Source: Desulfatitalea alkaliphila (GTDB taxonomy: Bacteria; Desulfobacterota; Desulfobacteria; Desulfobacterales; Desulfosarcinaceae). Taken from it: 64,000 nucleotides of DNA. The translations under genes and the position numbers were made by a program. Positions 39,139 to 58,527 of the stretch are shown in pieces (position 1 is the first letter of the stretch; every line of letters begins with the position of its first letter). Under the pieces are notes generated by a model. It did no database searches. It saw nothing but the letters and a program-made list of their open reading frames with translations, and was not told the origin of the DNA. Location: the NCBI RefSeq assembly GCF_022968795.1, contig NZ_JALJRB010000013.1, positions 1 through 64,000 of the forward strand, read 5' to 3'.

Positions 39139-39170
39139 CCGACGGATTGAAGTCCCTCTCGGTAAGTAAC
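39139..39170 (+). promoter_or_regulatory. Bipartite phage promoter-like motif, copy 1
   Basis: CCGACG (39139-39144), 16 bases, GGTAAGTAAC (39161-39170). It points right toward the integration cassette (first gene 39336) and sits 24 bases beyond the lexA operator, so LexA binding could influence both directions. Three more copies have identical spacing (43578, 52728, 58496). Confidence 0.7.
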
Positions 39171-39240
39171 CTCCGATAGTTCCGAAGATTCGCTTCGGAC
39201 ATGAGTTAGAAACCAGACAATTGGCCGGATGCCAGGCAGA

Positions 39241-39289
39241 GGCGGTTGTGGGTGCTGAAAAACGCGCATCCCAACCGCCTTTTGTTTTT
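39241..39289 (+). terminator. Leader terminator/attenuator before the integration cassette
   Basis: GGCGGTTGTGGGTGC (39241-39255) pairs with GCATCCCAACCGCC (39266-39279) and is followed by TTTTGTTTTT, a strong intrinsic terminator between the promoter motif and the first gene. Directly after it GCACCC (39291-39296) could instead pair with GGGTGC (39250-39255), an alternative fold that would break the terminator. A 39-base segment ending GTTGTGGGTG recurs in the leader of the sigma-like gene (42804-42830). A smaller hairpin TCCGAAG/CTTCGGA lies at 39181-39199. Confidence 0.7.
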
Positions 39290-39335
39290 GGCACCCGCAG
39301 CTTCCCTCATCAGCACCGGCCCAACGGAGGCCCTT

Positions 39336-39599
39336 ATGCTTGATGTGGAATTAGCACCCGAAAACCCTTACTCAAACCAGTTGACCGACGCCCAATTACC
39401 GGATGCTGAAGGTATTACACCGGAGCAGCGGATGGATTCCATTGCCGCCATTCTGGCCATTGCCGCACTCAGGAGTCGGTATCGTAAAGCCAATAATGCC
39501 AACAACTTAAAGAATATTGCAGATTCTTCGGGAACCTTCAGAGAAGGACTTGATTCTTCTGCGAGAAAGAGCGTCATTCATGACAACCGAGTCCTGTAA
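39336..39599 (+). CDS. Small protein at the head of the integration cassette
   Basis: An 87-residue protein (MLDVELAPENPYSNQLTDAQ; MDSIAAILAIAALRSRYRKA) with a short hydrophobic helix near residue 40 and a basic C-terminus. Not recognised. ACGGAGG precedes ATG 39336. It is 20 bases upstream of the DUF2924 gene and in the same unit as the recombinase; it may be a recombination accessory protein. Confidence 0.65.
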   Translation: MLDVELAPENPYSNQLTDAQLPDAEGITPEQRMDSIAAILAIAALRSRYRKANNANNLKNIADSSGTFREGLDSSARKSVIHDNRVL

Positions 39600-39619
39600 T
39601 CGAATATAAGGAGTTGAAA

Positions 39620-40126
39620 ATGAGTGACTTGAAAAACAAAAAAACGGAGCCGACCAAGACCTCGGTGTTGAGGCAATTGGCAACGCTCCAGAACATGAGC
39701 CTTGATCAGCTCAGAGAGAAATGGCTGGACCTTTATGGAACCGAGCCACCCCAGTACAAAAAGCAGTTTCTGGTTAAACGGCTGGCACACCGGATTCAGG
39801 AGCTCTTTTACGGCGGCCTGTCCGAGCAGGCCAAATCCCACCTGAAGAAAGTTGCCGAGACAGATCCGGTGGCAACGGTCATCCGCAAGATTCCGGAAGA
39901 ACGAAAATCACAGGAGGCCATCCTGCCGGGCACCCGATTTGTCCGGATCTGGAACGACCAGCGCTATGAGGTGATCGCCCGGGAAAGCGGCTTTGAATAC
40001 GACGGCCGCATCTTCAGGTCTCTGAGCGCCATAGCGAGGGAAATCACAGGCACCCGCTGGAACGGCAAGATCTTTTTCGGCCTGAAGAACAGTCACAGAA
40101 AAAAGGAAGGTGGTCCGAATGCTTAA
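39620..40126 (+). CDS. DUF2924 protein, companion of the serine recombinase
   Basis: A 168-residue basic protein of the DUF2924 family: LRQLATLQNMSLDQLREKWL, LYGTEPPQYKKQFLVKRLAH RI-type helical N-half and GTRFVRIWNDQRYEVIARES followed by EYDGRIFRSLSAIAREITGT, a small beta-strand module. DUF2924 genes are almost always encoded next to large serine recombinases of proteobacterial elements and are thought to assist site recognition or directionality. TAAGGAG precedes ATG 39620, and its end overlaps the recombinase start by 8 bases. Confidence 0.88.
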   Translation: MSDLKNKKTEPTKTSVLRQLATLQNMSLDQLREKWLDLYGTEPPQYKKQFLVKRLAHRIQELFYGGLSEQAKSHLKKVAETDPVATVIRKIPEERKSQEAILPGTRFVRIWNDQRYEVIARESGFEYDGRIFRSLSAIAREITGTRWNGKIFFGLKNSHRKKEGGPNA

Positions 40127-41702
40127 CAATAACAACACTCAAAATGGCCAGCGCAAAACACTCCGCTGTGCCATCTATACCCGCAAAAGCCACGAGGAAG
40201 GTCTGGATCAGGAGTTCAATTCACTCGATGCCCAGAGGGAGGCAGGTGAAGCTTACATCGAAAGTCAGAAGCTGCAGGGATGGAAGGCCATCCCTTACCG
40301 GTACGATGACGGCGGCTTTTCCGGCGGCACTATGGAACGTCCGGCACTGCAGAGACTGCTGGCGGATATCGATGCCGGTAAGATCGATGTCATCGTCGTT
40401 TACAAGATCGACCGATTGTCCCGCTCCCTGCTGGACTTCATGAAGATGATTGAGCTCTTCAATGAAAAGGAAGTGAGCTTTGTATCCGTCACCCAGCACT
40501 TCAGCACCACCGACTCGACGGGCCGCATGTTTCTGGGAATCCTGATCACCTTTGCCCAGTACGAACGAGAGGTCATCGGCGAGCGTATCCGGGACAAGGT
40601 GGCCGCTGCAAAACGCCGGGGCAAATACTGTGGTGGACCTGCGGTACTCGGTTACGACGTGGACCGGGAAAACAAAAAACTGCTGATCAACCAGAGCGAG
40701 GCTCCGCTGGTGAAACTCATCTTCAGGCGATACACGCAGGTGGGATCGGCAAAGAAGGTGGCGCAGGAGCTCAACGAGCAAGGATACAAAACCAAGTCAT
40801 GGACTACCAAAAAGGGCAAGGAGCGGATCGGTACCGAATGGAACACGGCTCAGGTCTACCGCCTTCTCAACAACAGGCTCTATATCGGGGAGATTGCCTA
40901 CAAAGGCAAAAACTATCCGGCGGAGCATGATGCCCTGATTGACCAGAACACTTGGGACAAGGTTCAGGCGCTCCTCTCGGAAAACAATCGAACCAAGATG
41001 AGCAAGGCCCGGGTGAAAATGGTCTCGCCCCTGAGCGGAGTGATCCGGTGTGGCCACTGCGACAGTGCCATGGGCATCACCTATACCAACAAAGGCGACC
41101 GGCGCTACTCCTATTATATATGTGAAAAGGATACCAAACGCGCTGTCAGCCGGTGCCCCTTGAAGCGGGTTCCTGCCGGAGACATCGAATCGGTGGTGCT
41201 TGGTCAGCTGGGAGCGGTATTCAGGACACCGACCTTGGTGGCTAAGACCTACTTTGCCGCCAGAGAAATCGAGGCGGAAGAGCGCGAGCGCCTGCAGAGC
41301 CAGAAAAAGGAACTCGAACAATCACTGCAGAGCATCAGGCAGGAAGCCCTGAAGCTGATGTCGCCCGACAATGATGATCCCGACCGGAATAACCGACTGC
41401 CCTTGGTCAACCAGCAGGCCGTCGATTTGACCAAGCAGCTCACCAACGTATCAGCACGGTTGAGGGTTATCGATACGGAGCAGATTTCCGAAGGTGATGT
41501 ATCCGAAGCTTTTCAAAGCGTAGAAACCTTCTGGGAGGATCTGTTCCCCCTCGAGCGCAACCGGCTGATCCAGCTTCTGGTGGAAACCATCGAGATCCGG
41601 GAGACAGGAATCGACATGGAACTGAAAACCAACGGCCTCACAAACCTTGTCACCGAGCTGGCCGGTCTGGCCTGTGAAGTCAGGGAAAGGGGTAACAGCT
41701 GA
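40119..41702 (+). CDS. Large serine recombinase (integrase)
   Basis: A 527-residue site-specific recombinase. Resolvase domain with catalytic Ser24 in AIYTRKSHEEG, Arg residues in VYKIDRLSRSLLDF and the helix-E linker after FAQYEREVIGERIRDKVAAA. The recombinase domain follows (GPAVLGYDVDRENKKL), then the zinc ribbon (IRCGHCDSAMG ... YYICEKDTKRAVSRCP, four Cys) and a coiled coil (EAEERERLQSQKKELEQSLQ). All parts of a functional phage-type serine integrase are present. It overlaps the DUF2924 gene upstream and the HTH gene downstream. The likely attP lies in the repeat-containing gap at 42193-42338 (inference). Confidence 0.93.
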   Translation: MLNNNNTQNGQRKTLRCAIYTRKSHEEGLDQEFNSLDAQREAGEAYIESQKLQGWKAIPYRYDDGGFSGGTMERPALQRLLADIDAGKIDVIVVYKIDRLSRSLLDFMKMIELFNEKEVSFVSVTQHFSTTDSTGRMFLGILITFAQYEREVIGERIRDKVAAAKRRGKYCGGPAVLGYDVDRENKKLLINQSEAPLVKLIFRRYTQVGSAKKVAQELNEQGYKTKSWTTKKGKERIGTEWNTAQVYRLLNNRLYIGEIAYKGKNYPAEHDALIDQNTWDKVQALLSENNRTKMSKARVKMVSPLSGVIRCGHCDSAMGITYTNKGDRRYSYYICEKDTKRAVSRCPLKRVPAGDIESVVLGQLGAVFRTPTLVAKTYFAAREIEAEERERLQSQKKELEQSLQSIRQEALKLMSPDNDDPDRNNRLPLVNQQAVDLTKQLTNVSARLRVIDTEQISEGDVSEAFQSVETFWEDLFPLERNRLIQLLVETIEIRETGIDMELKTNGLTNLVTELAGLACEVRERGNS

Positions 41703-42121
41703 TGAAAAAAATTAAACCAACTATCAAACTTTCTGACAGCGGGAATCTGCACATCCATATCCCCATGTTCATACGAAGAATGCGCGGCCGGAAAATGGTG
41801 TTCACTCCGGACACGCTGGACGGTGAAAATGAAGGGATGCCGGAAACGGTTCAAACAGCCATCGTTCAGTCACTGGCCAGAGCCTATTCATGGGCGGACA
41901 TCCTTGAGAGCGGCGAGATAAAGTCTATCAGCGAACTGGCAAGGGATCTCGATGTGGATTCATCCTACGTGGCCAGAACCCTGAAGCTGACCACTCTCGC
42001 CCCGGACATTGTCGAAGCCATCATTAACGGTGAAGAGCCCAGCGGACTCTCACTGTCAAAGCTGGTGAAAACATTCCCGCTCGACTGGAGTGAGCAGCGA
42101 ACGTTCTTTGGATTCTGCTGA
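41702..42121 (+). CDS. HTH protein downstream of the recombinase
   Basis: A 139-residue protein whose middle is a helix-turn-helix: GEIKSISELARDLDVDSSYV followed by ARTLKLTTLAPDIVEAIING, resembling ParB/KorB-type HTH modules. The N-terminus (KLSDSGNLHIHIPMFIRRMR) is beta-rich and basic. Its ATG overlaps the recombinase TGA by one base. Such proteins are the regular third gene of DUF2924-recombinase cassettes and might be the recombination directionality factor. A good intrinsic terminator follows. Confidence 0.75.
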   Translation: MKKIKPTIKLSDSGNLHIHIPMFIRRMRGRKMVFTPDTLDGENEGMPETVQTAIVQSLARAYSWADILESGEIKSISELARDLDVDSSYVARTLKLTTLAPDIVEAIINGEEPSGLSLSKLVKTFPLDWSEQRTFFGFC

Positions 42122-42150
42122 TCGCTATCCCATAAACCACCATCCCAAAC

Positions 42151-42177
42151 AGCCGACCTTCGTGTCGGCTTTTTTTA
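42151..42177 (+). terminator. Intrinsic terminator of the integration cassette
   Basis: AGCCGAC and GTCGGCT pair across CTTCGT and are followed by a run of seven T, thirty bases after the HTH gene. Confidence 0.88.
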
Positions 42178-42192
42178 TGCCCTGACGAGTGA

Positions 42193-42338: not shown

Positions 42339-42446
42339 GCCAAAGAAGGGTGACAGGTCTGGTGAACACAAAAACGTTCACGACCTCACCCGGATTAAGC
42401 ATGCCGGACCTGTCTTCCGGGAGGTCCTTAGCAAAGGAGGTTCGGC

Positions 42447-42773
42447 ATGAACCAGATAAAGAAGACATCACTAAACGGACAGCAGCAAAAGCTCATCGAG
42501 CTGATGCAGCAAATCAACTTCGGGCGCATTTCCAACATTCCAGTTGTTGGCGGCAATCCCGAACTCACCGCAGACACAATTATCGAGCGTGAAATCAAAC
42601 TGGGCGGCCAGAACGGTACCCGCCCGGAGCTGGAAAAGGATGACTTCACCCTGAAGCAGGAAGTGCTCGCTCTACTCGAACACCTTACCGGCATGGGCGA
42701 TGGAATCATCCGTCATCTTGAAATTAAGCATGGGCTGCCATTCCTGATTCGTATCGAGGAACGGGCTGCATAA
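42447..42773 (+). CDS. Small phage protein of unknown function
   Basis: A 108-residue acidic/helical protein (NGQQQKLIELMQQINFGRIS; EVLALLEHLTGMGDGIIRHL EIKHG). Not recognised. AAAGGAGG at 42434-42441 precedes ATG 42447. It stands alone between the attP-like gap and the sigma-like factor, perhaps a regulatory or DNA-mimic protein. Confidence 0.65.
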   Translation: MNQIKKTSLNGQQQKLIELMQQINFGRISNIPVVGGNPELTADTIIEREIKLGGQNGTRPELEKDDFTLKQEVLALLEHLTGMGDGIIRHLEIKHGLPFLIRIEERAA

Positions 42774-42988: not shown

Positions 42989-43573
42989 ATGTTTTATCGA
43001 AATTCTTATGAAGGCATTGATGGGTATGCCGCAGACCTTATTCGGCACAAGGCAAGACAACTGGTGGGTAAAGCCGGACTGACAGAAGACGATCGGCAGG
43101 ATCTTGAGCAGGAACTGATGATCGACCTGTTGGGCAGAATGAAGCACTTCAACCCTGCCAAGGGGAAGAAAACAACCTTCATGACTCGCATCGTGGAGCG
43201 GCGGATTTCAACCATTCTTGAAGCTCGCTTCGCTCAATGCAGAGACTGGCGCAAATGCTTCAACACTCTCAACGACCCCATTCCGGGCGGTGACAATGAT
43301 TCGGCAGAGCGCATCGAGCAGGTTTCAAGTGAGGGACAGATGGGACACCACGGCAAGGAAACCATCGAGCAACGGCAAAACGATATCCGCTTCGATGTCG
43401 AGCGGGTCATTGCCGCACTACCTGTAGATCTGCAGGAGCTCTGCGAAAAACTGCAGTCGAGCAACATGGCTGAAATTGCAAGAGAGATGGGCGTTCCGCG
43501 CAGCACCCTCTACGGACAATTGACCAAGCTGAGGGACGCATTCCGGGACGGCGGATTGGAAGAATACCTCTGA
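42989..43573 (+). CDS. Sigma-70-like factor of the element
   Basis: A 194-residue protein with the layout of a small (ECF-like) sigma factor. Region 2-like: DGYAADLIRHKARQLVGKAG, DDRQDLEQELMIDLLGRMKH FNPAKGKKTTFMTRIVERRI. Region 4-like HTH: LPVDLQELCEKLQSSNMAEI followed by AREMGVPRSTLYGQLTKLRD. Phage proteins of this type drive middle or late transcription. Its ribosome site is buried in a perfect hairpin, so translation should be conditional. Four identical-spacing bipartite motifs in the element (39139, 43578, 52728, 58496) are candidate promoters for it; the first one begins 5 bases after its own stop. Confidence 0.78.
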   Translation: MFYRNSYEGIDGYAADLIRHKARQLVGKAGLTEDDRQDLEQELMIDLLGRMKHFNPAKGKKTTFMTRIVERRISTILEARFAQCRDWRKCFNTLNDPIPGGDNDSAERIEQVSSEGQMGHHGKETIEQRQNDIRFDVERVIAALPVDLQELCEKLQSSNMAEIAREMGVPRSTLYGQLTKLRDAFRDGGLEEYL

Positions 43574-43577
43574 TCGA

Positions 43578-43609
43578 CCGACGCATCGCCCGGGGTTCCG
43601 GTAAGTAAG
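43578..43609 (+). promoter_or_regulatory. Bipartite phage promoter-like motif, copy 2
   Basis: CCGACG (43578-43583), 16 bases, GGTAAGTAAG (43600-43609), 73 bases before the first gene of the recombination/replication operon. Confidence 0.7.
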
Positions 43610-43681: not shown

Positions 43682-44002
43682 ATGGAAACTTACAAGTATC
43701 GCTTTGATCAGTCGGTCCCGGCTCAGGACTTGGAAGACACCTTCATGCTGGCGTTGCTGGCTGTGGAAAGCATGTATGGACACTCCAGAGTGAGGATGGA
43801 ATCCCGCTTCAATCTGGATAAACAGAATCGCACCTGTCAGATCGATGCCGCGACCAAAGTCGGCGGTGATCTGGCGAGCATCTTTACCGGATTCGCCACC
43901 AAGGAATACGGCGAGCGTGCAGTAATGATCGACCGTGAACCTGCCGGTGGCGGATGTGCCTGTAATGCAAAAGCGCCTTCAGCAATGGAGGTGACGGTAT
44001 GA
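43682..44002 (+). CDS. Small protein opening the replication operon
   Basis: A 106-residue protein (METYKYRFDQSVPAQDLEDT; MLALLAVESMYGHSRVRMES) with a possible ferredoxin-like alpha/beta pattern and Cys pair CAC near the C-terminus. Not recognised. CAGGAG precedes ATG 43682, and its stop overlaps the start of the nuclease gene (GTATGAG), so it is coupled to it. Confidence 0.7.
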   Translation: METYKYRFDQSVPAQDLEDTFMLALLAVESMYGHSRVRMESRFNLDKQNRTCQIDAATKVGGDLASIFTGFATKEYGERAVMIDREPAGGGCACNAKAPSAMEVTV

Positions 44003-45015
44003 GCGAAATGATGACCACCACTTATTCCATGTGGCGGCTCTTCCGCAACTGCCGCAAGGCTTGTGAATACCGCTACCTGAGGGACCTTGCTCCTCTGGAG
44101 CGGGATCACAACCTGGCTTTCGGATCGGTCATTCACGACTGCCTTGAAATCTGGCATGGCCAGCGGGACCTCGAAAAAGTTCTCGAACACATCGATCAGG
44201 TCTATGCCAACCGGGCACAGGATGATCACCAGCTTGCCGACTGGCATCTCGCCACCGCAATGATGAGTTCATACGTGGAGCATTATCCGGTCGAGGACTT
44301 TGATGTGGTCGCTCTGGAGAAGACCTTCGAAGGCCCCATCATCAACCCGGATACCAATGCGGCTTCCAGAAGCTTCGTGCTGGCTGGCAAGGTGGACGGC
44401 CTGGTCAAACAGGATGGGCAGTATTTCCTTCTGGAACATAAGACCGCCTCACAAATCGATGCCGGTTATCTGGAGCGCCTTTGGACTGATTTTCAGATCA
44501 TCATTTATGCGTGGTATCTGGAACAGACCCTCGGCATCCACATCTCCGGCATCATCTACAACGTGCTGGTCAAGGCCAAGCTACGCCAGAGCAAAGGTGA
44601 AACGGAAGCTGAATTTGAATCCCGTCGAGCCGAGCTGATCGCAAAATCCAAAACCGGCAAGAGCAGTGCCAAACGCAAGATGCCCGAGCAGGATGATGCC
44701 TTTCAGCAGCGCCTCAAAGACAAATACCTCGAACCCGGCATGTTTCACCGGGAGGTGCTCTACATCTCCCGCGATCAATTCGACGAGCTGCGCAGTGAGC
44801 TTTGGGAACTATCCAAAGCCATGCTGGATGCCCGCCGCCGCAACACCTTCTACCGCAATACGGCCTTCTGTTTTCAGTATGGACACGCCTGTCCCTACTT
44901 CCCGCTGTGCCGGAGCGGTGAGAACCCCAACGTCATTGAAAACCATTACCAACGGGTGCTCCCGCACGAAGAGCTGCGGGATGGAGCAAGTGAAGACGCT
45001 GCCCCTGTTTTTTAA
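43999..45015 (+). CDS. RecB/Cas4-like PD-(D/E)XK nuclease
   Basis: A 338-residue nuclease. FGSVIHDCLEIWHGQ gives the early His, and VDGLVKQDGQYFLLEHKTAS gives the D...E-x-K active site. One Cys near the N-terminus (NCRKACEYRY) and three near the C-terminus (CFQYGHACPYFPLC) match the Fe-S arrangement of Cas4/AddB-type nucleases. It probably processes DNA ends during phage recombination together with the following ATPase and SSB-like protein. It overlaps the upstream gene by four bases. Confidence 0.87.
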   Translation: MSEMMTTTYSMWRLFRNCRKACEYRYLRDLAPLERDHNLAFGSVIHDCLEIWHGQRDLEKVLEHIDQVYANRAQDDHQLADWHLATAMMSSYVEHYPVEDFDVVALEKTFEGPIINPDTNAASRSFVLAGKVDGLVKQDGQYFLLEHKTASQIDAGYLERLWTDFQIIIYAWYLEQTLGIHISGIIYNVLVKAKLRQSKGETEAEFESRRAELIAKSKTGKSSAKRKMPEQDDAFQQRLKDKYLEPGMFHREVLYISRDQFDELRSELWELSKAMLDARRRNTFYRNTAFCFQYGHACPYFPLCRSGENPNVIENHYQRVLPHEELRDGASEDAAPVF

Positions 45016-45040
45016 CCCAAACCATACAAGGAGATAAATC

Positions 45041-45811
45041 ATGCTTCCGAAAAGCAAAACCAAACCGAAAGCAAGCCTGAATGACCTGACCGCACTGGTT
45101 TACGGTCCAAGCAAAATTGGCAAGAGCACTTGGTGCTCCCACGCGGAAAACGCCCTGTTTCTCGCCACGGAACCGGGCCTGAATGCCCTCGAAGTGTTCG
45201 AAGCGCCCATTACCTGCTGGGACGACCTTCTGCAGGCGTGTGCCGAGATTGCCGAAGGCAAACACGACTTCAAGACCATCGTTATCGATACGGTGGATAA
45301 CGCCTACCGCATGTGTGCGGATTATGTCTGCAAGAAGTTCAAGATCGAGCACGAGTCCGACCTCGGCTACGGCAAAGGCTATGCCCTCATCAATAATGAG
45401 TTTCAGCGTGTTCTCAACAAGTTGGCATTTCTGCCATACGGCCTGATCCTCATTTCCCATTCCCATGAGCGTGACATCGAAACGCGCACCGGGAAGCACA
45501 CACGCATCGTGCCGACCCTGCCGGACAAGGCCCGCAAGCTGGTCACCGGTCTGGTGGACCTGATCCTGTTCTGTGATCTGGACATGAAAACCGGTGACGA
45601 CGGCAAGCCCATGTATCAGCGGGTGATGCGCACCAAGCCAAGCCCCAATTACGACGCTGGAGATCGAACCGGCCGACTTCCGGAGATGATCCCTCTGGAT
45701 TTCCCGACCTTCCTGAAAGCTTTCAATCAAACGGCTGCCGGTTCAGCGGTGAGTGCCGCCCGGACTAAGTCGGAGCCAGCCACAACGGCTAAACCTCAAA
45801 ACAAGGAGTAA
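45041..45811 (+). CDS. Sak4-like RecA-fold ATPase
   Basis: A 256-residue P-loop ATPase: LVYGPSKIGKSTWCSHAENA (Walker A near residue 20), FKTIVIDTVDNAYRMC (Walker B near 85) and LAFLPYGLILISHSHERDIE. The layout fits the phage AAA_24/Sak4 single-strand annealing recombinases that work with an SSB-like partner. The next gene is such a partner, beginning immediately after. AAGGAG precedes ATG 45041. Thr/Ala-rich C-terminal tail. Confidence 0.88.
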   Translation: MLPKSKTKPKASLNDLTALVYGPSKIGKSTWCSHAENALFLATEPGLNALEVFEAPITCWDDLLQACAEIAEGKHDFKTIVIDTVDNAYRMCADYVCKKFKIEHESDLGYGKGYALINNEFQRVLNKLAFLPYGLILISHSHERDIETRTGKHTRIVPTLPDKARKLVTGLVDLILFCDLDMKTGDDGKPMYQRVMRTKPSPNYDAGDRTGRLPEMIPLDFPTFLKAFNQTAAGSAVSAARTKSEPATTAKPQNKE

Positions 45812-45816
45812 TGACA

Positions 45817-46290
45817 ATGAGTTGGAATAACGATGACACCATGGACCTCGCGCAGTTCGACGATGATTTCGTTTCTGCGGATGTTGAAGAAAAGGACTTT
45901 GAAGCTGTTCCCGACGGGAAATATCAGGTCAAGGTCGATCGCGTGGAACTGACCCGCTCGGAAACTTCCGGTAATCCCATGCTCAAGTGGGCGCTGAAGA
46001 TTCTGGGTCCCACCCATAAAGGCCGTCTGCTCTGGCGTAACAACGTCATTGCCAGCAAGGACAATGTGAAATGGCTCAAGCAGGATCTCTATACCTGCGG
46101 CCTGCAGATTGACAAGCTTTCGGACCTCCCGGGCAAACTGGAAACCCTTCTGGATGTCGGACTCGAGGTGACCAAGCGCACGAAAAACGAATTCGAGAAC
46201 ATCTACTTCAACCGCCGGATAGTGCTTTCAGATGAAGATGCCGCAGCACCGTCGGCCGGTCACGACGTAGACGACATGATTCCGTTTTGA
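45817..46290 (+). CDS. DUF669 SSB-like protein
   Basis: A 157-residue protein of the DUF669 type: EAVPDGKYQVKVDRVELTRS, SGNPMLKWALKILGPTHKGR, LEVTKRTKNEFENIYFNRRI. These are OB-fold-like ssDNA-binding proteins of phages. Its last residues, DVDDMIPF, copy the acidic tip of bacterial SSB (D-D-x-I-P-F), which recruits replication and repair proteins. That strongly supports an SSB role. Start 45817 is preferred over ATG 45811 for RBS spacing (AAGGAG at 45804-45809). Confidence 0.87.
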   Translation: MSWNNDDTMDLAQFDDDFVSADVEEKDFEAVPDGKYQVKVDRVELTRSETSGNPMLKWALKILGPTHKGRLLWRNNVIASKDNVKWLKQDLYTCGLQIDKLSDLPGKLETLLDVGLEVTKRTKNEFENIYFNRRIVLSDEDAAAPSAGHDVDDMIPF

Positions 46291-46298
46291 GGATGGGC

Positions 46299-46769
46299 AT
46301 GGTTACCGTTGTCGTTGATACCCGAGAACAGGAGCCTTACGGATTTGATTCGGAATCTATTGCATCAATCCGCAAGGCCCTCCCGGCGGGAGATTACTCC
46401 ATCGAGGGATTCGAGACCCGGGTGGCGGTGGAAAGGAAGTCCATGGCGGATTTTGTTTCCACTGTCATCCGAGGCCGCAAGCGTTTTCACAAGGAGCTGG
46501 AAAAGCTCCGGCATTATGACGTGGCCTGTGTCGTCGTTGAGGCCAATTACCGGGATGTTCTCGGTGCCTGTTACCAGAGCGACGCCCATCCAAACGCCCT
46601 CATAGGAACCATTGCCTCCATCATCATCGACTTCGGTGTGCCCGTTTATTTCTGTTCAGACCGTCAGGCAGCCTGCCGGTTTGTTGAAGAGTTTTTAATG
46701 CGCTTTCACCGGAGGTTCGCTCAATGCCAAGAAAAACAAACTCCCCGGCAAAACTCCGGGGAAGAATAG
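46299..46769 (+). CDS. ERCC4-type nuclease
   Basis: A 156-residue nuclease of the ERCC4/XPF fold: VVVDTREQEPYGFDSE gives the acidic GDxxE-equivalent DTRE, and RVAVERKSMADFVSTVIRGR gives the ERK-x3-D core. It lacks the XPF HhH region, as phage versions do, and probably cuts branched DNA. ATG 46299 with GAGG seven bases upstream is chosen over ATG 46293. Its 3' end overlaps the RecD-like gene by 46 bases in another frame. Confidence 0.87.
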   Translation: MVTVVVDTREQEPYGFDSESIASIRKALPAGDYSIEGFETRVAVERKSMADFVSTVIRGRKRFHKELEKLRHYDVACVVVEANYRDVLGACYQSDAHPNALIGTIASIIIDFGVPVYFCSDRQAACRFVEEFLMRFHRRFAQCQEKQTPRQNSGEE

Positions 46770-51900: not shown

Positions 51901-52245
51901 ACGGCGCTCTCGACATTGTTCAAAGCATGGCGAACAGCCGTGGAGTCCGACCGGAAAGATATGTACAACGATCGCCGGGTGGACCACATTCAGGAGTTTG
52001 TTGCCCGCTATCAGGTGCAGCTCGAAGAAGACGGCTGCCTCAAGGAGGTATTGTCCCGGGAGCTGTTCGTGGCGCTCAAACGTGTGGCCAGAGATTTCGG
52101 TCTGCGCTTTGAAATGGATTCATCGAGGCAGTTTGCCCAGCGCTTTGCCAACGACCTTGAAACCATCCGCGAGGCCGGATTCGATGTTGTCATCAGCCAG
52201 AAACGATACGGAACCAAGCTCTATACCATCCAAACATTCGAATAG
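48943..52245 (+). CDS. Primase-helicase (CHC2/Toprim/ATPase)
   Basis: A 1100-residue phage replication protein. CHC2-type zinc finger: Cys45, His48, Cys67, Cys70 in LQCDCPHHQSQSHRS and WYCFGCGVGGDVLQL. Toprim-like segment near residues 285-345 (DHIIITEGVTDCIALMQQGF; LKTVYICQDNE). A linker rich in Lys (KKEKKKAKRLSG) leads to a C-terminal P-loop ATPase with RFEGSAGSGKTTASKLISAL near 760 and NPLIVLDNIEVKQ (Walker B). It should synthesise primers and help unwind DNA at the iteron region that directly follows. ATGA overlap with the RecD2 gene fixes the start at 48943. Confidence 0.88.
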   Translation: MSMGGSDNVREYYRLITELDIGDVARDLLAGRITQESRQRLQCDCPHHQSQSHRSLHVMLDKQGWYCFGCGVGGDVLQLVEFIQSGTVTAGQSGPMPDSHRQARDFLAGKAGMPPLSRYGLTQERLEQTENDRSFEIRVKDALTELARFYHQRLKENQEALTWLKEKYAISDETIDDLLIGFADNESGVIAALRSGEHGFSKRELSATGAFRPTSQDGLNPFFEKRIIFPYWSRGRVVFMIGRKTPWTPDVNWEQGKYKKLPVHDEHQRPYVARFINNAVLFNEDCLLGKPDHIIITEGVTDCIALMQQGFPALSPVTVRIRAADWERLVPKMRGLKTVYICQDNEISEAGLKGALQTARTLAEHKIDTKLVTIPLNDPQQQARQELQERFNLTTAVGPRELAKLLEGHSSEEIREAETLLANAKIDVNDFFASGNGKAEFEELLSAACTPVEFGIQSLPEDAPEEERNRQLEPVLAEISAHSPLEQSRLLKLVQERLGKAVSMATLKEQVRSVQQNRRDNAKKEKKKAKRLSGSPPGSCRARVDEVLIDTELENGAPDYTAAAEAAYDWFTANGAQFFHTQTGEPFMYFDNSIYWMDSPDRGRKRQYAAMLYKHTGMVPTSNGGRTFFEVLPSLAMIRGQVRDHFSWLHTDISNFTVYFNLNNQDHEIARITPDGIEILKNGGNADGIILDGSRKMKPLKFLKDAAPEEADKLLVDLLINNMTCSQGDRFLILSWLTCFLLIDFSGTRPMTRFEGSAGSGKTTASKLISALLYGEPQHKKATDAANYTDGSQNPLIVLDNIEVKQMTEDLTTFMLTSITGIAKEKRKSGTDSETVTERTKCLLNTTGIEPLCGELSEIQSRSFVINFDIGNQGNDCFIESDVIAALQRNRDLIISALMKRTSEVLAMMKDGMRTQAMKLLHEALGNHDKRRCNEYLSLMYLMLLAGSSQDQIEQGMSTLAPAFKQQIQTINQTSRETARDSNHTATALSTLFKAWRTAVESDRKDMYNDRRVDHIQEFVARYQVQLEEDGCLKEVLSRELFVALKRVARDFGLRFEMDSSRQFAQRFANDLETIREAGFDVVISQKRYGTKLYTIQTFE

Positions 52246-52727: not shown

Positions 52728-52759
52728 CCGACACTCAGGCTCCGGCTCCGGTAAGTAAC
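52728..52759 (+). promoter_or_regulatory. Bipartite phage promoter-like motif, copy 3
   Basis: CCGACA (52728-52733), 16 bases, GGTAAGTAAC (52750-52759), starting 3 bases after the last iteron and 38 bases before the next gene. Confidence 0.7.
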
Positions 52760-52796: not shown

Positions 52797-53585
52797 ATGA
52801 GTCTTTTACAAACCATGCTCACGCATCTTGATTCCCCTGTGTGTGAGCCTTCCCAACAAGCTGCTCCGCCTGCTGAAAATGACAGCAGCACACCGGAGCC
52901 CGATCTTTTTGTATCCACCGATCTGGACACCGCACAATTCGAGTGGGCCGTCACGTCCGCCAGCGACGTTGAATACAATGGCAAAATTTATCGACGTCTC
53001 GAGCCGGAGTATTTTGCATGGCTCCGTTCACGGATGCTGGCAGCCCAGTCCGCTTTCAAAGCCGGTAAGCTTTCTGAATCAACATGGGAAAGCCTGAAAA
53101 GCAGGTTCAACCCGCTTCAGGAATACGCGGTTCAGAAATTCGGCAAGGAAGATTTACAGCAGGCATCCCGTCAACTCAGCCCACAGAATTACCAGCCTCC
53201 CCGTCATGTTCCGGCAAACCCCGAGAAACCTGCAGAACCTCCCAAGAACAACTGGATTTATCCGCCAAACGAAGCTTGGAATTGTATAGAGCAGGTCTGC
53301 TCCGACGCATTGGCCAAAGTTGATGCCATCAAGGAGGAAGCCATGTCCCAGAAATGGTCTGAAGCCAGGCTATACCAGAATCAGGGACGATACCGCTTCC
53401 CCTGTGGTCAGGACTACGGGCTGGTCTGCTTTGTCGGCGGTGACCGGAAGATCGGTGCCGTGACGGAAAGATATATCGAAATCATCCACAGCCCGGATAC
53501 ACCGCGTCCCAGCACGCTCAGGTTTCACAACCCGGATGTTTCGCAGCCGTGGTTGAAGAAAGTGGAGAGTAACCATGAGCATTAA
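52797..53585 (+). CDS. Phage protein of unknown function, duplicated module part 1
   Basis: A 262-residue protein, related along residues ~40-258 to the protein at 24043-24771 (about 55% identical by eye). Conserved parts are RRLEPEYFAWLRSRMLAAQS, NNWIYPPNEAWNC, KVDAIKEEAMSQKWSEARLY, FPCGQDYGLVCFVGGD and STLRFHNPDVSQPWLKKVE. The N-terminal 40 residues are Pro/Ala/Ser-rich. It is not assigned to a family. GGAGGTCACCC precedes ATG 52797, and its last bases overlap the HTH gene. The pairing seen twice suggests the two proteins act together, possibly in control of DNA packaging or late genes. Confidence 0.75.
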   Translation: MSLLQTMLTHLDSPVCEPSQQAAPPAENDSSTPEPDLFVSTDLDTAQFEWAVTSASDVEYNGKIYRRLEPEYFAWLRSRMLAAQSAFKAGKLSESTWESLKSRFNPLQEYAVQKFGKEDLQQASRQLSPQNYQPPRHVPANPEKPAEPPKNNWIYPPNEAWNCIEQVCSDALAKVDAIKEEAMSQKWSEARLYQNQGRYRFPCGQDYGLVCFVGGDRKIGAVTERYIEIIHSPDTPRPSTLRFHNPDVSQPWLKKVESNHEH

Positions 53586-53850
53586 GAAATACGCCAATGC
53601 CGAACACATCCTGCCGAGAGAGATGCTCAAGGAGGTGCAGAAGTACCATTCCGGCATTCTTTGGATTCCAGCGCCGGGCAGTTTTTACAAGGAACGCAGG
53701 CAGCTGGTTATCGCCCTGAAAAGTCAGGGAATAGAAACCGATGAAATTGCCAGCCTCGCCGGTATCACACGTCGCCGGGTCAATCAGATCCTCGCGGACC
53801 ACAGAAAAGAAACCGACGCCCGACAGGTTGAGGACTCTTCCGGTATGTAA
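53575..53850 (+). CDS. CD3324-like HTH protein, duplicated module part 2
   Basis: A 91-residue protein: KKYANAEHILPREMLKEVQK, YHSGILWIPAPGSFYKERRQ, and the HTH GIETDEIASLAGITRRRVNQ. It overlaps the previous gene by 11 bases. The paralogue at 24775-25026 keeps the same order and spacing. It is probably a DNA-binding regulator whose partner is the upstream protein. Confidence 0.78.
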   Translation: MSIKKYANAEHILPREMLKEVQKYHSGILWIPAPGSFYKERRQLVIALKSQGIETDEIASLAGITRRRVNQILADHRKETDARQVEDSSGM

Positions 53851-53938
53851 GGCTTGAGGTGCGGGAAAACGGGCTAAATCTGCCTTCCGCCCCGAACCCC
53901 GAAATTTGGAAACAAAATTGATAAACCGGAGATGAGCC

Positions 53939-54472
53939 TTGGGCGTTACAAAAAAAGACGAACAGAATCTGGATCGCTGGCATCGGAATGAGGGCCGGAC
54001 GGACCATGATCAGGCAAAGAGCAAAGCGGGAGCTAAAGAAGGAAACCTTCGCACGCTCAAGCATGGCATCTTTGCCGACCGCTGCCTGACTCCGGAAGAA
54101 AAGGTCATGTTCGACAGCATCATCGAAAAGCTACATGAGGACTTTCAGTTCAACAAATCCAGCGATTTCCTGCAGGTCGAGCTTGTGGGCATCTACTCGG
54201 TAAAGCTGGTCCGGGCACAGATCGAAGGAAACACACAGGCAGCCGAAAGTCTCGACCGGATGATCCGCTGCCACATGAAGGATCTCAAGACCACCAAGAT
54301 TGCCCGTGAGGGTGAGGAGCCGAAAGGTCCGCAGACGTCTCCTGCCGAATGGGCCTCCGCTCTTCTTGAAAAAGTGAGTGAAGCCGCCGCCCAGAAGACC
54401 GCTTCCGTGAAAAAGCCGAAAAAAAGTTCAGATAACACCAGAGCCTCAAAAAGAAAGAGCGCGAAGGATTAG
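53939..54472 (+). CDS. Terminase small subunit-like protein
   Basis: A 177-residue basic protein. The N-terminal SKAGAKEGNLRTLKHGIFAD matches the opening of many phage terminase small subunits and related packaging proteins (GNxNALKHG-like). It continues with a helical region (LTPEEKVMFDSIIEKLHEDF) and a Lys-rich tail (KKPKKSSDNTRASKRKSAKD). The start is TTG 53939, seven bases after GGAG; no ATG is available in frame nearby. The terminase large subunit lies 2.5 kb downstream, separated by a minus-strand recombinase insert, which is unusual. Confidence 0.65.
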   Translation: MGVTKKDEQNLDRWHRNEGRTDHDQAKSKAGAKEGNLRTLKHGIFADRCLTPEEKVMFDSIIEKLHEDFQFNKSSDFLQVELVGIYSVKLVRAQIEGNTQAAESLDRMIRCHMKDLKTTKIAREGEEPKGPQTSPAEWASALLEKVSEAAAQKTASVKKPKKSSDNTRASKRKSAKD

Positions 54473-54598
54473 GCAGTTATGGAGGCTCAAGATGACAGGA
54501 ATTTCAGATAAGACGTGTTCCCGGAAATTTCAGTTAAGTAAAATTTCTCAAATGAAAGGTGCGAACCATCGGTTCAGCATCGGTTCCCTCCAATCCTA

Positions 54599-54647
54599 TG
54601 CGCATAAGACCATACATAAGAAAATCAACTTTATTGGCTTATGCGCA
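54599..54647. repeat. Inverted repeat near the tyrosine recombinase
   Basis: TGCGCATAAG (54599-54608) and CTTATGCGCA (54638-54647) are perfect inverted 10-mers 29 bases apart; two related CGCATAAC/CACATAAC half-sites follow before 54712. The 311-base gap 54473-54783 has no gene. The repeats lie 137 bases from the 3' end of the tyrosine recombinase gene and could be its recombination or operator site. Confidence 0.5.
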
Positions 54648-54783
54648 CATAACGCCATAAATCCCAAAGTGGCCTGTATGGCCTTGTTCGCGCATAACGG
54701 CATATGCCGCAATTTTAATATGCGGCCCGGGAACGAAAAAGGAGCAGCAGGAGCCGCTCCGGATGTTCAGGTCAACGCTGGTG

Positions 54784-55692
54784 CTACAGCCTTTCAAGAG
54801 CATCCTCGAGCTGACCATCGACAAGGTGAGTGTAAATCTGGGTCGTTGAAATATCCCGGTGCCCCAGCGCCCTCTGCACGACAAGCAGGTCGCTGGTGGC
54901 CCCGTAAAGGTGGGTTGCAAAGGTATGCCGCAGACCATGCGGAGTCAGGTTCTTTTCAATACCGGCTTTGTTCAGCCACAAGGCTATTCGGTTGGCTATC
55001 TGCCGCTGGCAAAGACGTGTTCCTCTATTGGATAGAAACAGTGCGTTGCATGGCGCTGTGCTTTGCCGGGATCGTTCTTTCAAATATCTTTTCAGCAGGA
55101 TGCGGAGGTCGGTTTTTATGAACTTGACCTGCACCACATTCCCTTTGGCTCTGACTCTCAGGTGCTTTGCATCGAGATCGATATCGTCCGTGTCCAGCGC
55201 CTCGAGCTCACCGATGCGGATGCCGGTGCCGAGCAGGACTTCGATCATGACCCGGTCCCGCATTCCGGCAAAGCCCGTGCGGCCTTTTACCTCTTTCAGC
55301 AATGCCTTCTTTTCTGAAGCTGTAAGAAACACCGGCGGCTTCTGTGCCAGCCTTTTCATGCGAACCGACCGGGCCGGGTTTTCAGTTGTAAGCCCGGCAT
55401 CGGTAGTCCATGTGAAGAAGGAACGGACCGCCGCTTTCAACCGATGCACCGATGCCGGTGACCTTGCTCCCGAATCCGTGGTCAAAAGCTCTGGCGAGGA
55501 TAAAGCCCGGTCCAGCAGGCCGGGTGTCACATCTTGGCAGCAGAGCCCGGGCTGGAAGGATTCGGCCACACAGGCCACCAGTCGCAGATCACGACGGTAT
55601 GCGGTCACAGTCCCGGCTGCTTTGTTTTCGGCCGACAGGTGGGCACAGAACCGCTCTATGGCCGTTTCCAGTCGATCACTGCTGTTCGGCAT
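54784..55692 (-). CDS. Tyrosine recombinase (XerC/D-like)
   Basis: A 302-residue integrase-fold recombinase with the complete active set: Arg159 (LLGTGIRIGELEAL), Lys184, His252 and Arg255 (PHGLRHTFATHL), His278 and nucleophile Tyr287 (ALGHRDISTTQIYTH). The N-terminal core-binding domain (AIERFCAHLSAENKAAGTVT) is normal for Xer-type enzymes. It is on the opposite strand to the phage late genes and between the small and large terminase genes. A second recombinase in an element that already has a serine integrase suggests dimer resolution, inversion, or a nested mobile unit. Confidence 0.92.
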   Translation of the reverse strand: MPNSSDRLETAIERFCAHLSAENKAAGTVTAYRRDLRLVACVAESFQPGLCCQDVTPGLLDRALSSPELLTTDSGARSPASVHRLKAAVRSFFTWTTDAGLTTENPARSVRMKRLAQKPPVFLTASEKKALLKEVKGRTGFAGMRDRVMIEVLLGTGIRIGELEALDTDDIDLDAKHLRVRAKGNVVQVKFIKTDLRILLKRYLKERSRQSTAPCNALFLSNRGTRLCQRQIANRIALWLNKAGIEKNLTPHGLRHTFATHLYGATSDLLVVQRALGHRDISTTQIYTHLVDGQLEDALERL

Positions 55693-56047
55693 CGGTCACC
55701 TCCGTCTGCTTGCTGTGTCCCATCGGGGTGCTCTTGGGCAGCGGCAGCTCATCGATAAATCCGGAATCCTTGGCCCATACCAGCATCATCCGGAACACTC
55801 GGATGGTCTTGGCGACGGTTCTTTCGGCCCGGGCATTGCCGTTTCCGAGCTTCAGCAGCGCATCGCATTTGAGAAACTTTCCAACCTGCGTGATACGCAG
55901 CTCCTGAAGCTTCTTGTCCTTGCCGATATATCCCTCGATGAGATCGAGGTCCTTCCGGTAGGTGTAGAGCGTCCGCTCCTTTTTGCCGTTCTCCCGAAGA
56001 TGGTTGATGAAGGCGGCTGTGGTTTCATGAATGGTCATTTCTGTCAT
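55676..56047 (-). CDS. Stand-alone core-binding (SAM-like) recombinase domain
   Basis: A 123-residue protein that matches only the N-terminal core-binding domain of tyrosine recombinases (TAAFINHLRENGKKERTLYT, KDLDLIEGYIGKDKKLQELR, RTVAKTIRVFRMMLVWAKDS). No catalytic domain follows; instead its 3' end overlaps the start of the full XerC/D-like gene by 17 bases. It may be a partner or a regulator that occupies the same DNA arms, or a remnant of a second recombinase. Confidence 0.8.
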   Translation of the reverse strand: MTEMTIHETTAAFINHLRENGKKERTLYTYRKDLDLIEGYIGKDKKLQELRITQVGKFLKCDALLKLGNGNARAERTVAKTIRVFRMMLVWAKDSGFIDELPLPKSTPMGHSKQTEVTDAEQQ

Positions 56048-56080
56048 GGCATTAACTCCTTTGTTTGTGAAGCCGGTGGC

Positions 56081-56275
56081 TTAACCCAGAAACTCATCGA
56101 TCTGCTGGAGCAGCTCTTCGACATGCCCGAGCGACCCGACGTGCGCCCAGTTGATATTCGATTGCCCGGCATCTGCGGCCAGCTTCTGCTGAATCCGCTG
56201 GATGTACTCGGCAATGTTGTCCTGGCGCTTTTTGTAGGCCGTTCTGGCGTCGTCGCTGTTTTTTACCTGTTTCAT
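56081..56275 (-). CDS. Small helical protein upstream of the recombinase pair
   Basis: A 64-residue protein (MKQVKNSDDARTAYKKRQDN; LGHVEELLQQIDEFLG), not recognised, likely helical. It is 33 bases upstream of the core-binding-domain gene on the same strand, so it forms a three-gene unit with the recombinases. CAGGAGACGCCCC precedes ATG 56275. A GCGGGAC/GTCCCGC palindrome lies at 56306-56320 in the divergent gap. Confidence 0.6.
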   Translation of the reverse strand: MKQVKNSDDARTAYKKRQDNIAEYIQRIQQKLAADAGQSNINWAHVGSLGHVEELLQQIDEFLG

Positions 56276-56415
56276 GGGGCGTCTCCTGCTTCGGTTTATA
56301 GTTCTGCGGGACCGTCCCGCGTTATGTCCAATGACGCTTATATCCCCTTGGAAATCAAGTGTTTGCAGAGATGTTTCTGCATTAAAACGACAACCCTAAA
56401 ACAAAGGAGCGCAAC

Positions 56416-56688
56416 ATGTTAAAGAAAGCACTCGAATGGGTAGTCCCATTGACGCTGGCCGGTATGGTTGCTGGCTGCGCCACGTACAGGCCGCCTGAGC
56501 AGATTCAGTCGGCAACATCCACCCTGAACCGCTACACCCCGGAATATGTCCGGGAGGCAAACAAGGCTTTGGTTGAATCCAACCACCCTGATGCGGAACG
56601 TCTGGTCGGAATCGGCCTGCGTCTGCAGACAGCCATTGATTCACTGGATAGCTGGGCGAACACAAACCCGGAGGACAGTGAACAATGA
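56416..56688 (+). CDS. Small phage lipoprotein
   Basis: A 90-residue protein with a lipoprotein signal: hydrophobic VVPLTLAGMVAGCATYRP with the lipobox AGMVAGC (Cys22). The mature part is helical. Short lipoproteins in phage late regions often serve in lysis (Rz1-like) or superinfection exclusion, but there is no proline-rich Rz1 signature, so the role is open. ACAAAGGAGCGCAAC precedes ATG 56416, and its stop overlaps the next start (ATGA). Confidence 0.75.
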   Translation: MLKKALEWVVPLTLAGMVAGCATYRPPEQIQSATSTLNRYTPEYVREANKALVESNHPDAERLVGIGLRLQTAIDSLDSWANTNPEDSEQ

Positions 56689-56963
56689 AACAGATACTCG
56701 AACAAAACAGCGATGCGATCCGGGAGGCCGGTCAGGCACTGGTCGATATCGGCTCTGAGCTGGCGGCCGGGCGCATAGACGACGCATTCGAACGTATGGA
56801 AGCCGCCCGTCAGAAATACGTGGAATGGCAGGAACTCGATCAGGCCATTCTGGATATAGAGGAAGCTGTCAGTAACAGGACGAACACATTGGCGGTTCAG
56901 CAGATCCTCACAGAGCTGATCTCATCGGTTCTTGGAATTGCCATCCGTAAAGAGATGAATTGA
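56685..56963 (+). CDS. Small phage protein before the terminase
   Basis: A 92-residue acidic helical protein (QNSDAIREAGQALVDIGSEL; QKYVEWQELDQAILDIEEAV) without a recognised domain. It overlaps the lipoprotein upstream by four bases and the terminase downstream by one, so it is part of the packaging unit. It could be a second small terminase-like subunit. Confidence 0.7.
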   Translation: MKQILEQNSDAIREAGQALVDIGSELAAGRIDDAFERMEAARQKYVEWQELDQAILDIEEAVSNRTNTLAVQQILTELISSVLGIAIRKEMN

Positions 56964-58486
56964 TGGGTGTCTCTGATAAGGAGCGCAGGCTGGCCGAAAC
57001 ACTCCGTGACCCGGTCTTGTGGGGACAGGCATATCTCTACAACCGGGACGGTTCGGCACGCTCGTATTGGGATCACCAGAAGGAAGACCTCCGCTGTTCC
57101 CACAAAAACATCATCCACCTCGATGGCCGTGACGTTGGCAAGTCGATCGTGCTTTCGACGGATGCACTGCACTATACCTTCACGACTCGCGGCGGACAGG
57201 GATTGATTGCCGCTCCTCATCAGGGACATCTGGACACGGTCATCGAGGAAATCGAATACCAGCTGGATCACAATGAAGACTTGATGAACAGCATTGCCAT
57301 CTCGAAATACGGCAAACCCAAAATAACCCGGAAGCCATACTTCCGACTGGAGTTTACCAATGGCTCCGTGATCTATTTCCGTCCGGCTGGTGCGTATGGC
57401 GATGCATTCCGCTCGCTTCATGTAGACCGAGTTTGGGTAGATGAAGGCGCGTGGCTTTCCGAGCGTGCATGGAAGGCGCTCAGACAATGCTTGAAAACAG
57501 GCGGCCGCCTGAAAATCTATTCCACCCCCAATGGCCTGAGAAACACTACCTACTATCGGCTGACCCTGTCGGAACAATTCAAGGTGTTCCGCTGGGCCTC
57601 TTGGCTCAATCCATTCTGGACGGCTGAACGGGAATCGGAGCTGCTGGAGTTTTATGGCGGCAAAGACACATCGGGCTGGCAGCATGAGGTTGCCGGGGAA
57701 CACGGGAAGCCTTCCTACGGAACGTTTAATGTTGAGCAGTTCAATCTCTGCCGACAGGAATTGCTGGAATATCAGAAGGTCACCATCACCGATACCGAGC
57801 TGCGTGATTGTGAAACAGAGGAAGCCGCCTATGACCGGCTTGAACTGCTGCTCAACCTCACGCCCCGAACCGGGTTATTCTGGATTGGCGGTGACCTTGG
57901 ATATACCAATGACCCGACCGAGCTGGTTATCTTTCAGGAAGCCGAGGTGGGTGATCGCAGCATCCTGAAACTGGTGCTGCGTATTCACATGGAGCATGTT
58001 TCGTATCCGCACATTGCCCAGACCATCGCACTGCTCGAGCGCTATTTCACTCCGGCGGGAATCGGCGTGGACAATGGCGGCAACGGTCTGGCCGTCGTGC
58101 AGGAACTGCTGACCCTCGACAAATACAAAGAGCTGGAATTGGAAGGCCGCTTGAAAGGCTTTGACTTCGGCGGCATGACCCGGCTCACCATCCGAGATGG
58201 CAAGGAGATCAAGAAGCGGACAAAAGAGCTGATGACCAGCCTGATTAACGGTGCCCTCCAGCGCAAACAGATCATCTTCCCGTCAGACGATCTGGAAATT
58301 GAAGACCAGTTCACCACCCAGACGTACACCCTGCGGGACGGTAAGATCATCTACTCCAAAGGCAACGACCACATAATCGATGCGGTCCGCTGTGCCATGC
58401 TCATTCGGGAGCAAGGCAACCTCGACCTTGCCGGTGAAGAGACCGTCTGGCTCAAGCCTGTTCTGACAGAGCCGGTCTTTATTTAA
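56963..58486 (+). CDS. terL: Terminase large subunit
   Basis: A 507-residue packaging ATPase-nuclease. The ATPase has NIIHLDGRDVGKSIVLS (Walker A variant G-R-D-V-G-K-S near residue 53), VDRVWVDEGAWLSERAW (Walker B, acid Glu near 157) and LKIYSTPNGLRNTTYY (coupling motif C). The nuclease has IGGDLGYTNDPTELVIF (Asp near 313) and AGIGVDNGGNGLAVVQELL. It cuts concatemers and pumps DNA into the procapsid. ATG 56963 overlaps the previous stop. A bipartite promoter-like motif follows at 58496. Confidence 0.92.
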   Translation: MGVSDKERRLAETLRDPVLWGQAYLYNRDGSARSYWDHQKEDLRCSHKNIIHLDGRDVGKSIVLSTDALHYTFTTRGGQGLIAAPHQGHLDTVIEEIEYQLDHNEDLMNSIAISKYGKPKITRKPYFRLEFTNGSVIYFRPAGAYGDAFRSLHVDRVWVDEGAWLSERAWKALRQCLKTGGRLKIYSTPNGLRNTTYYRLTLSEQFKVFRWASWLNPFWTAERESELLEFYGGKDTSGWQHEVAGEHGKPSYGTFNVEQFNLCRQELLEYQKVTITDTELRDCETEEAAYDRLELLLNLTPRTGLFWIGGDLGYTNDPTELVIFQEAEVGDRSILKLVLRIHMEHVSYPHIAQTIALLERYFTPAGIGVDNGGNGLAVVQELLTLDKYKELELEGRLKGFDFGGMTRLTIRDGKEIKKRTKELMTSLINGALQRKQIIFPSDDLEIEDQFTTQTYTLRDGKIIYSKGNDHIIDAVRCAMLIREQGNLDLAGEETVWLKPVLTEPVFI

Positions 58487-58495
58487 CCCTCCTTT

Positions 58496-58527
58496 CCGAC
58501 GTTTTTCCTCTTTCTCCGGTAAGTAAC
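58496..58527 (+). promoter_or_regulatory. Bipartite phage promoter-like motif, copy 4
   Basis: CCGACG (58496-58501), 16 bases, GGTAAGTAAC (58518-58527), ten bases after the terminase stop and 75 bases before the portal gene. Confidence 0.7.

Follow-up and report, generated by a model that had tools for sequence, protein, structure and literature searches.

The DNA analysed here, referred to as the window, is a 64,000-nucleotide stretch of Desulfatitalea alkaliphila (positions 1 to 64,000 of contig NZ_JALJRB010000013.1, forward strand), and it carries a prophage in which copies of one bipartite motif, CCGACR-N16-GGTAAGTAAS, stand ahead of the gene units. With a probability of roughly 0.86, judged by comparison of sequences, this motif is a -35/-10 promoter read by the extracytoplasmic function (ECF)-type sigma factor that the prophage itself encodes, and it appears to belong to a set of phage promoters, probably sigma-directed and shared across the lineage, which is of a known kind and well supported by comparison. 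An earlier note on this DNA had described four plus-strand copies, each in the gap before a phage transcription unit, and all four are exact matches to the pattern in the window, as compared to none in 100 dinucleotide shuffles, while a scan allowing up to 3 mismatches returned 5 window matches against a shuffle mean of 0.73. Four was nevertheless an undercount: the window holds a fifth copy, and the prophage extends past the window with five further copies at C5:65559, 70961, 77873, 79414 and 85868, giving ten copies with at most 1 mismatch between positions 39139 and 85868 of contig C5. The copies within the window are as follows.

39139..39170, plus strand: motif copy 1, exact, before the integration module, the first well-led gene start of which is at 39336
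43578..43609, plus strand: motif copy 2, exact, 4 bases past the sigma stop codon and before the recombination/replication unit at 43682-52245
52728..52759, plus strand: motif copy 3, exact, before 52797-53850
53820..53851, plus strand: fifth window copy, one mismatch, right half GGTATGTAAG, holding the stop codon of a helix-turn-helix (HTH) gene and preceding 53939
58496..58527, plus strand: motif copy 4, exact, before the portal gene at 58602

All ten copies lie on the plus strand, which is the coding strand, because the units of this prophage run that way; the proposal that the motif is always on the plus strand thus holds for this prophage but not for a sister clade, in which the motif is inverted along with an inverted integration module. 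A scan of 100 kb of C5 with a matrix built from 17 sites, the ten prophage copies among them, recovered the same ten, each scoring at least 25 bits, plus a single further site at 14.3. The rest of the 5.07 Mb genome (98 contigs) contains two good copies on contig C12, next to a sequence that by eye resembles a portal gene start, and three matches with 2 mismatches, and the reversed pattern, allowed up to 2 mismatches, gave six matches (3 + 3) in the whole genome. A prophage remnant on another contig (L011:9737-10122) carries a motif copy with what by eye is the cut-off start of a portal-like gene, and a second, facing motif copy. Gene boundaries host nine of the ten copies, six of which (43578, 58496, 65559, 70961, 79414 and 85868) begin 1-16 bases after a stop codon, and a start codon led by a Shine-Dalgarno (SD) sequence lies 25-87 bases downstream of eight copies, the distance from copy 1 to the first well-led ATG being 165 bases. 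The idea that a copy always occupies the gap before a unit does not hold for the copy at 77873, which lies within a 1222 amino acid (aa) open reading frame (ORF), nor for that at 53820, which overlaps the preceding stop codon. The spacers, which had been thought unrelated in sequence, mostly vary, but their last four bases read YTCC in nine copies and TCTC in copy 1, and the right half is thus nearer to YTCCGGTAAGTAA.

The suggestion that the element encodes its own sigma-like factor is supported by family searches:

42989..43573, plus strand: ECF-type sigma factor of 194 aa with regions 2 and 4 (TIGR02937, Pfam Sigma70_r2, PHROG 1740, AlphaFold model and fold searches)

The match to the ECF-type sigma70 superfamily family TIGR02937 scores 47.4 bits against a curated cut-off of 42.9, with residues 16-183 aligned to profile positions 12-159 of 165. 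Region 2 is supported by Pfam Sigma70_r2 (27.9 bits, cut-off 24) and by three helices within residues 12-83 of the model, and the helix-turn-helix of region 4 is present, with a sequence match to ECF region 4. Some ECF groups read a GGAAC-like -35 element; the left half of the motif is CCGACR and not GGAAC-like, and the sigma factor was not placed in the GGAAC-reading ECF groups.

The association of the motif with genes for this sigma factor was followed across relatives, for which sigma loci were drawn from viral contigs (a first set of 20 loci and a second of 39, with many contigs in common), from species genomes (8 loci) and from 97 related genomes (10 matched). The linkage set comprised 59 loci, reduced to 41 distinct downstream sequences by omitting duplicate contigs and L042, which is the same place as L036, and including the window locus; the sigma factors are approximately 35-100% identical, and the scan left the spacer free between 13 and 19 bases and allowed up to 2 mismatches. 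In 35 of the 41 sequences the motif starts no further than about 42 bases past the end of the sigma gene, without any mismatch in 30, and in all 35 the spacer is 16 bases, which upholds the constant spacing originally proposed. When sigma-bearing genomes and records were searched whole the motif was present in 20 of 20, with 160 matches as compared to 16 for the reversed pattern. In the 97 related genomes the motif matched 64 times and the reversed pattern 6 times, and the motif was found in all ten genomes with a sigma match and in five without one. Among the ten, G042 has a distant sigma only, its motif belonging to the small gene beside ssrA discussed below, and G070 has motif and sigma on separate contigs; among the sigma-less five, G054 carries the motif on a short contig where the next ORF resembles, by eye, the protein starting at 52797, and in G007, G039, G044 and G067 it stands before the ssrA-side gene. 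The lineage with integration modules occurs in sulfate reducers, Ectothiorhodospira and metagenomes, and Desulfobulbus rhabdoformis DSM 8777 has the sigma at two loci.

Viral contigs yielded at least 120 stretches with the spacer-16 pattern and none with a spacer-17 control pattern. The position of the motif was assessed on 72 distinct sites from 80 viral loci among the matches listed, close relatives included: the middle of the site fell inside an ORF of 100 aa or more on the same strand at 19 of the 72, as compared to 93% of random same-strand positions, and an SD-led start lay within 130 bases at 58 of 62 usable sites, as compared to 26%, at a median distance of 56 bases. A motif copy also heads the integration module in relatives of clade A and in loci of clades B and D; in clade B, where the LexA-integrase block runs opposite to the sigma block, the motif is inverted along with it, as expected for a promoter of the unit behind it. 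A set of 17 motif-bearing viral contigs, 16 of which had been chosen because no sigma match was seen and 16 of which lack the sigma, was considered as a counter-example to the linkage and rejected as such: of the six with a primase, G177 has the sigma, G163, G172 and G173 end within the primase, and in G161 and G176 the contig beyond the primase is too short for the expected sigma position. The 11 contigs without a primase are taken as late-region fragments.

The motif also drifts with the sigma factor. Clade D sigmas, about 43% identical, are paired with GGTAGGTATC-like right halves, which are shifted relative to the window motif. On one chromosome, that of G109, which harbours a clade B and a clade D prophage with two sigmas, base five of the right half is A in 9 of 10 clade B sites and in 2 of 8 clade D sites (Fisher p 0.013); this covariation of the right half with the sigma clade is suggestive, orthologous sites elsewhere not being independent. 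More distant sigmas have, in the same place, further drifted forms (CTGACA...TGTATGTAAT, CCGCCA...GATAGGTAAA and GCGACA...GGTAAGTAAT).

Beyond this lineage, a tblastn search of a phage collection with the sigma factor (E 0.001) matched only five records, all of Wolbachia phage WO and 22-26% identical, the best at 4e-12. The sigma-70 domain proteins of WO (KX522565, MN180251 and MW788656) are approximately 22-27% identical to the window sigma; membership of the same family is indicated by homology (tblastn and alignment) and by the AAA24-type gene which comes next in KX522565, as it does in the window. Inspection by eye of the sequence behind the three WO sigma genes revealed no CCGACR-N16-GGTARGTAA-like site, a lone GGTAGTTAA being present behind the sigma gene of KX522565. 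Comparison of the WO records by eye did uncover a different bipartite motif, GGACGAAT-N11/12-CGTRYATATA, with exact sites at 55752 (minus), 56601 (plus) and 65192 (plus) in KX522565 and at 21217 (minus), 26835 (minus) and 27875 (plus) in MN180251, while the reversed pattern gave no match. The MN180251 sites lie behind the sigma gene before replication genes, before the terminase block and before a block running into tail genes; two KX522565 sites lead the replication block and the divergent tail block, and the third, near the record end, appears from locus-tag order to precede head genes. In MN180251 all three sites fall at 21-28 kb, and none precedes the pair of long hypothetical genes on the minus strand at 71.6-76.6 kb. 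WO resembles the window prophage in having a related sigma before an AAA24-type gene (KX522565) and its own bipartite motif before gene blocks (2 of 3 records), but differs in motif and spacer, in having fewer sites and in its divergent late units. We predict that the WO sigma probably works alike with another promoter code. A study of Wolbachia start sites reported sigma70-type motifs and a TAAAAT motif (PMC12558409).

Taken together, the sigma match, the linkage behind sigma genes, the SD-led starts, the orientation, the drift between clades and the different motif of WO support the proposal that the sigma factor of the element reads these sites. CCGACR would be the -35 element, contacted by sigma region 4, and (YTCC)GGTAAGTAA an extended -10 element contacted by region 2, with transcription expected to start a few bases further on. 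In the lysogenic state the palindrome at 39096-39115 would be occupied by a LexA-type repressor. Upon induction host polymerase may make the sigma factor from the sigma unit, which has no motif of its own; the clade B loci scanned likewise show no motif ahead of this unit, and in the window a terminator-like hairpin, at chance level, lies at 42151-42170, which suggests that initial production of the sigma depends on host polymerase. A consensus scan for a promoter of the sigma unit itself found no sigma70-like site in 42100-43000. The sigma factor with host core polymerase would then read the ten promoters, thereby switching on the integration, replication, head and tail units, a step for which the comparison of relatives argues. 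An ORF directly upstream of the sigma gene may specify a co-factor or an anti-sigma factor; it gave a tblastn match ahead of the sigma in 2 of 2 clade B sets, 4 of 4 clade D, 1 of 2 clade C and 3 of 6 clade E contigs tested.

42447..42773, plus strand: 108-aa ORF directly upstream of the sigma gene, with tblastn matches in relatives and no Pfam match

Several observations speak against the promoter reading. Six of the 41 downstream sequences do not fit: in L047 the sequence after the sigma gene is unrelated, in L048 the sigma match stops at internal stops, the sigmas of L049 and L052 are only 25-29% identical and fall outside the 35, L108 has no clear motif and L109 has one with 3 mismatches. 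In G023 the reversed pattern occurs as often as the motif (8 each), all eight motif matches lying within 50 kb on one strand. Several copies per phage are found in clades A, B and D, whereas clades C and E, known from short contigs, mostly have just the copy behind the sigma. For the sigma factor itself Pfam gave no region-4 family at E 0.001, the AlphaFold model is of middling confidence (mean predicted local distance difference test, pLDDT, 69.5) and a Foldseek search with that model returned no match reaching E 0.001. The WO motif has no match in MW788656, and its spacer varies between 11 and 13, the value of 13 coming from a viral contig which was itself found by the pattern. To these is added the copy inside the ORF at 77873.

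The motif could instead be the operator of a phage activator which recruits host sigma70 polymerase, one candidate being the HTH protein encoded at 53575-53850: its gene has a match to the 'late transcriptional activator' family PHROG 836 (3.2e-5), sits between two motif copies and is kept at 67% in a clade D prophage, which leaves it in play as a reader of the motif and likewise counts against the sigma factor in that role. We consider this improbable, as the motif comes right after the sigma gene in 35 of the 41 sequences, consists of two unlike halves at a fixed distance rather than a palindrome or direct repeat, with a left half resembling TTGACA, and has a different counterpart in WO, which possesses a related sigma; furthermore, a consensus scan of 38900-43700, covering copies 1 and 2, revealed no plus-strand sigma70-like promoter. 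A role in RNA or DNA processing, as a site of antitermination or cleavage in the transcript, of recombination or of packaging, might account for the conserved hairpin leader behind copy 1 and for the copy within a gene, yet the core of that leader is exact only behind copy 1 within the window, the viral copies lie upstream of SD-led starts (among the matches listed) with an orientation that tracks the module, and a recombination or packaging site has no need to stand before every unit. Recombination and packaging were ruled out by this position and orientation, and the processing role as a whole is very improbable. A functionless dispersed repeat or chance similarity has only the similarity itself in its favour and is hardly credible, as the halves are kept while most of the intervening bases vary, across sigmas as little as approximately 35% identical, and chance was ruled out by the shuffles, none of which contained an exact copy.

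With the promoter reading preferred over these alternatives, the units that would fall under its control in the window, and the features upstream of them, are the following.

39336..42121, plus strand: unit 1, an 87-aa ORF, a DUF2924 protein, a large serine recombinase and a PHROG 14161 recombinase (family searches)
43682..52245, plus strand: unit 2, a PD-(D/E)XK nuclease, an AAA ATPase, a nuclease-like protein (by eye), a RecD2-like helicase and a primase (family searches)
52797..53850, plus strand: unit 3, a 262-aa protein of unassigned function and the HTH protein (family searches)
53939..58486, plus strand: unit 4, from a 177-aa protein to the large terminase (terminase by PHROG search; ORF listing)
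58602..60107, plus strand: portal protein, first gene of unit 5 (PHROG search)
42151..42170, plus strand: terminator-like hairpin lying after the integration module and ahead of the sigma unit, at chance level (1 found, shuffle mean 1.1)
38407..39030, minus strand: LexA-type repressor with S24 peptidase domain (TIGR00498, 181.7 bits against a cut-off of 110.95; Pfam)
39096..39115, no strand: perfect palindrome GACCTTA-N6-TAAGGTC, read from the sequence, candidate repressor operator
39089..39117, minus strand: sigma70-like TTGACC-N17-TATATT directed toward the repressor gene and overlapping the palindrome (consensus match; 1 found, shuffle mean 2.7)
39171..39300, plus strand: conserved leader with a strong hairpin behind copy 1 (fold z-score -4.9; -5.8 for 39225-39300)

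The palindrome is a putative operator of the LexA-type repressor, and related palindromes were seen by eye at the corresponding position in all 7 clade A sequences (some imperfect), 6 of 7 clade B loci and 1 of 5 clade D loci. The leader was aligned over 15 sequences (7 of clade A, 7 of clade B and 1 of clade D), its core being invariant, and it may possibly act as an attenuator; a T-rich stretch follows the hairpin in the window, and less so in clade B. The hairpin is formed by AGGCGGTTGTGGGTGC...GCATCCCAACCGCC, and a possible competing pairing with GGCAYCCRC was noted by eye. A search of 39100-39400 against Rfam, up to E 1, gave no match, and with both sides changed in just 4 of 28 predicted pairs there is little covariation; a riboswitch is not claimed. 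To the left of the repressor three minus-strand ORFs (35521-38357) have no PADLOC match. Unit 4 contains a minus-strand ORF at 54784-55692 that is integrase-like by eye and for which a clade D prophage gave a 61% match; together with another ORF, N-terminal integrase-like by eye, it forms the minus-strand stretch 54784-56047 in an otherwise plus-strand late region.

The motif is also found 30-40 bases upstream of a gene of 62-63 codons beside ssrA, for the most part in genomes where no sigma of this family was detected.

L053:9279-9464, minus strand: 62-63 aa gene beside ssrA, with one or two motif copies ahead; also in L054, L055, L056, L058, L064, L071 and L073

A match to this gene was present in 13 of 146 related genomes, some with internal stops; within G000-G096 there were 11 such genomes, three of which (G003, G005 and G042) also have a sigma match. 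Scored at no more than 1 mismatch to CCGACR-N16-GGTARGTAWS over 15 distinct loci, the motif is kept, in some cases in tandem, ahead of 8 of 8 full-length ORFs as compared to 2 of 7 broken or partial ones. Six of these loci (L053-L058) had been found via the motif itself; the nine found via the protein alone have it at 3 of 3 full-length and 1 of 6 broken or partial ORFs. The transfer-messenger RNA (tmRNA) gene lies right behind the small gene in 3 of 6 gene-bearing loci scanned (L055, L056 and L058). On the other side type I restriction-modification genes were seen in L053, L056 and L057, and a cytosine methylase with an MzaC-like protein in L064, while no restriction-modification genes were seen in L055 and L058, whose sequence stops a short way upstream. 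Searches of Pfam, NCBIfam and PADLOC with the 62-aa L053 protein gave no match. It is possible that the phage promoter code is read here outside the phage, the gene being silent until an infecting phage makes the sigma, but we hold this to be doubtful, its odds being slightly lowered by the motif-found loci among the 15. The gene might then be a tripwire defence, or a satellite or hitchhiker gene borrowing the sigma of its helper; alternatively, it could be what remains of the end of ssrA-integrated phage relatives. A resident small gene under the sigma of an invading phage has a parallel in nonA of SPbeta, which, as PMC8270828 describes, is regulated by the sigma factors of invading phage SP10, Orf199-Orf200. 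NonA, by that account, is a transmembrane protein, while the protein of L053 is without a family match.

In this integrating phage lineage a single sigma factor with a readable promoter code seems to drive the entire programme, whereas most phage sigma factors known to have mapped promoters come from lytic phages. Such a code could make the units and regulators of uncultured prophages predictable from sequence, the same logic yields a set of promoters that can be tested in Wolbachia phage WO, and the ssrA cassette, if the proposal for it is true, would represent cells or satellites eavesdropping on a phage sigma. In the literature searched, subscription journals being largely outside it, no description of the motif, of the promoters of this sigma family or of WO sigma promoters was recognised.

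Two phage sigma factors described in PMC8948821 allow comparison. The sigma gp36 of phiEco32 serves middle and late promoters at conserved genome positions, and in being a phage sigma that reads promoters at such positions it is like the window sigma; it is unlike it in that, according to the same text, its promoter is a single element, tAATGTAtA, and it has no region 4 homology. Salmonella phage 7-11 encodes the sigma SaPh711_gp47, for which late promoters GTAAtg-(16)-aCTA are described, eight of them in one genome (PMC8948821). As in the window prophage, that system combines a sigma with region 4 and bipartite promoters with a 16-base spacer before units, and 7-11 uses host core polymerase; it differs in its consensus and in that the window phage is a prophage with the integration module in the proposed regulon too. 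Several sites of one consensus standing before gene blocks with a 16-base spacer are what was found here, their nature as promoters being inferred, and gp47 of phage 7-11 is the closest proven case in kind.

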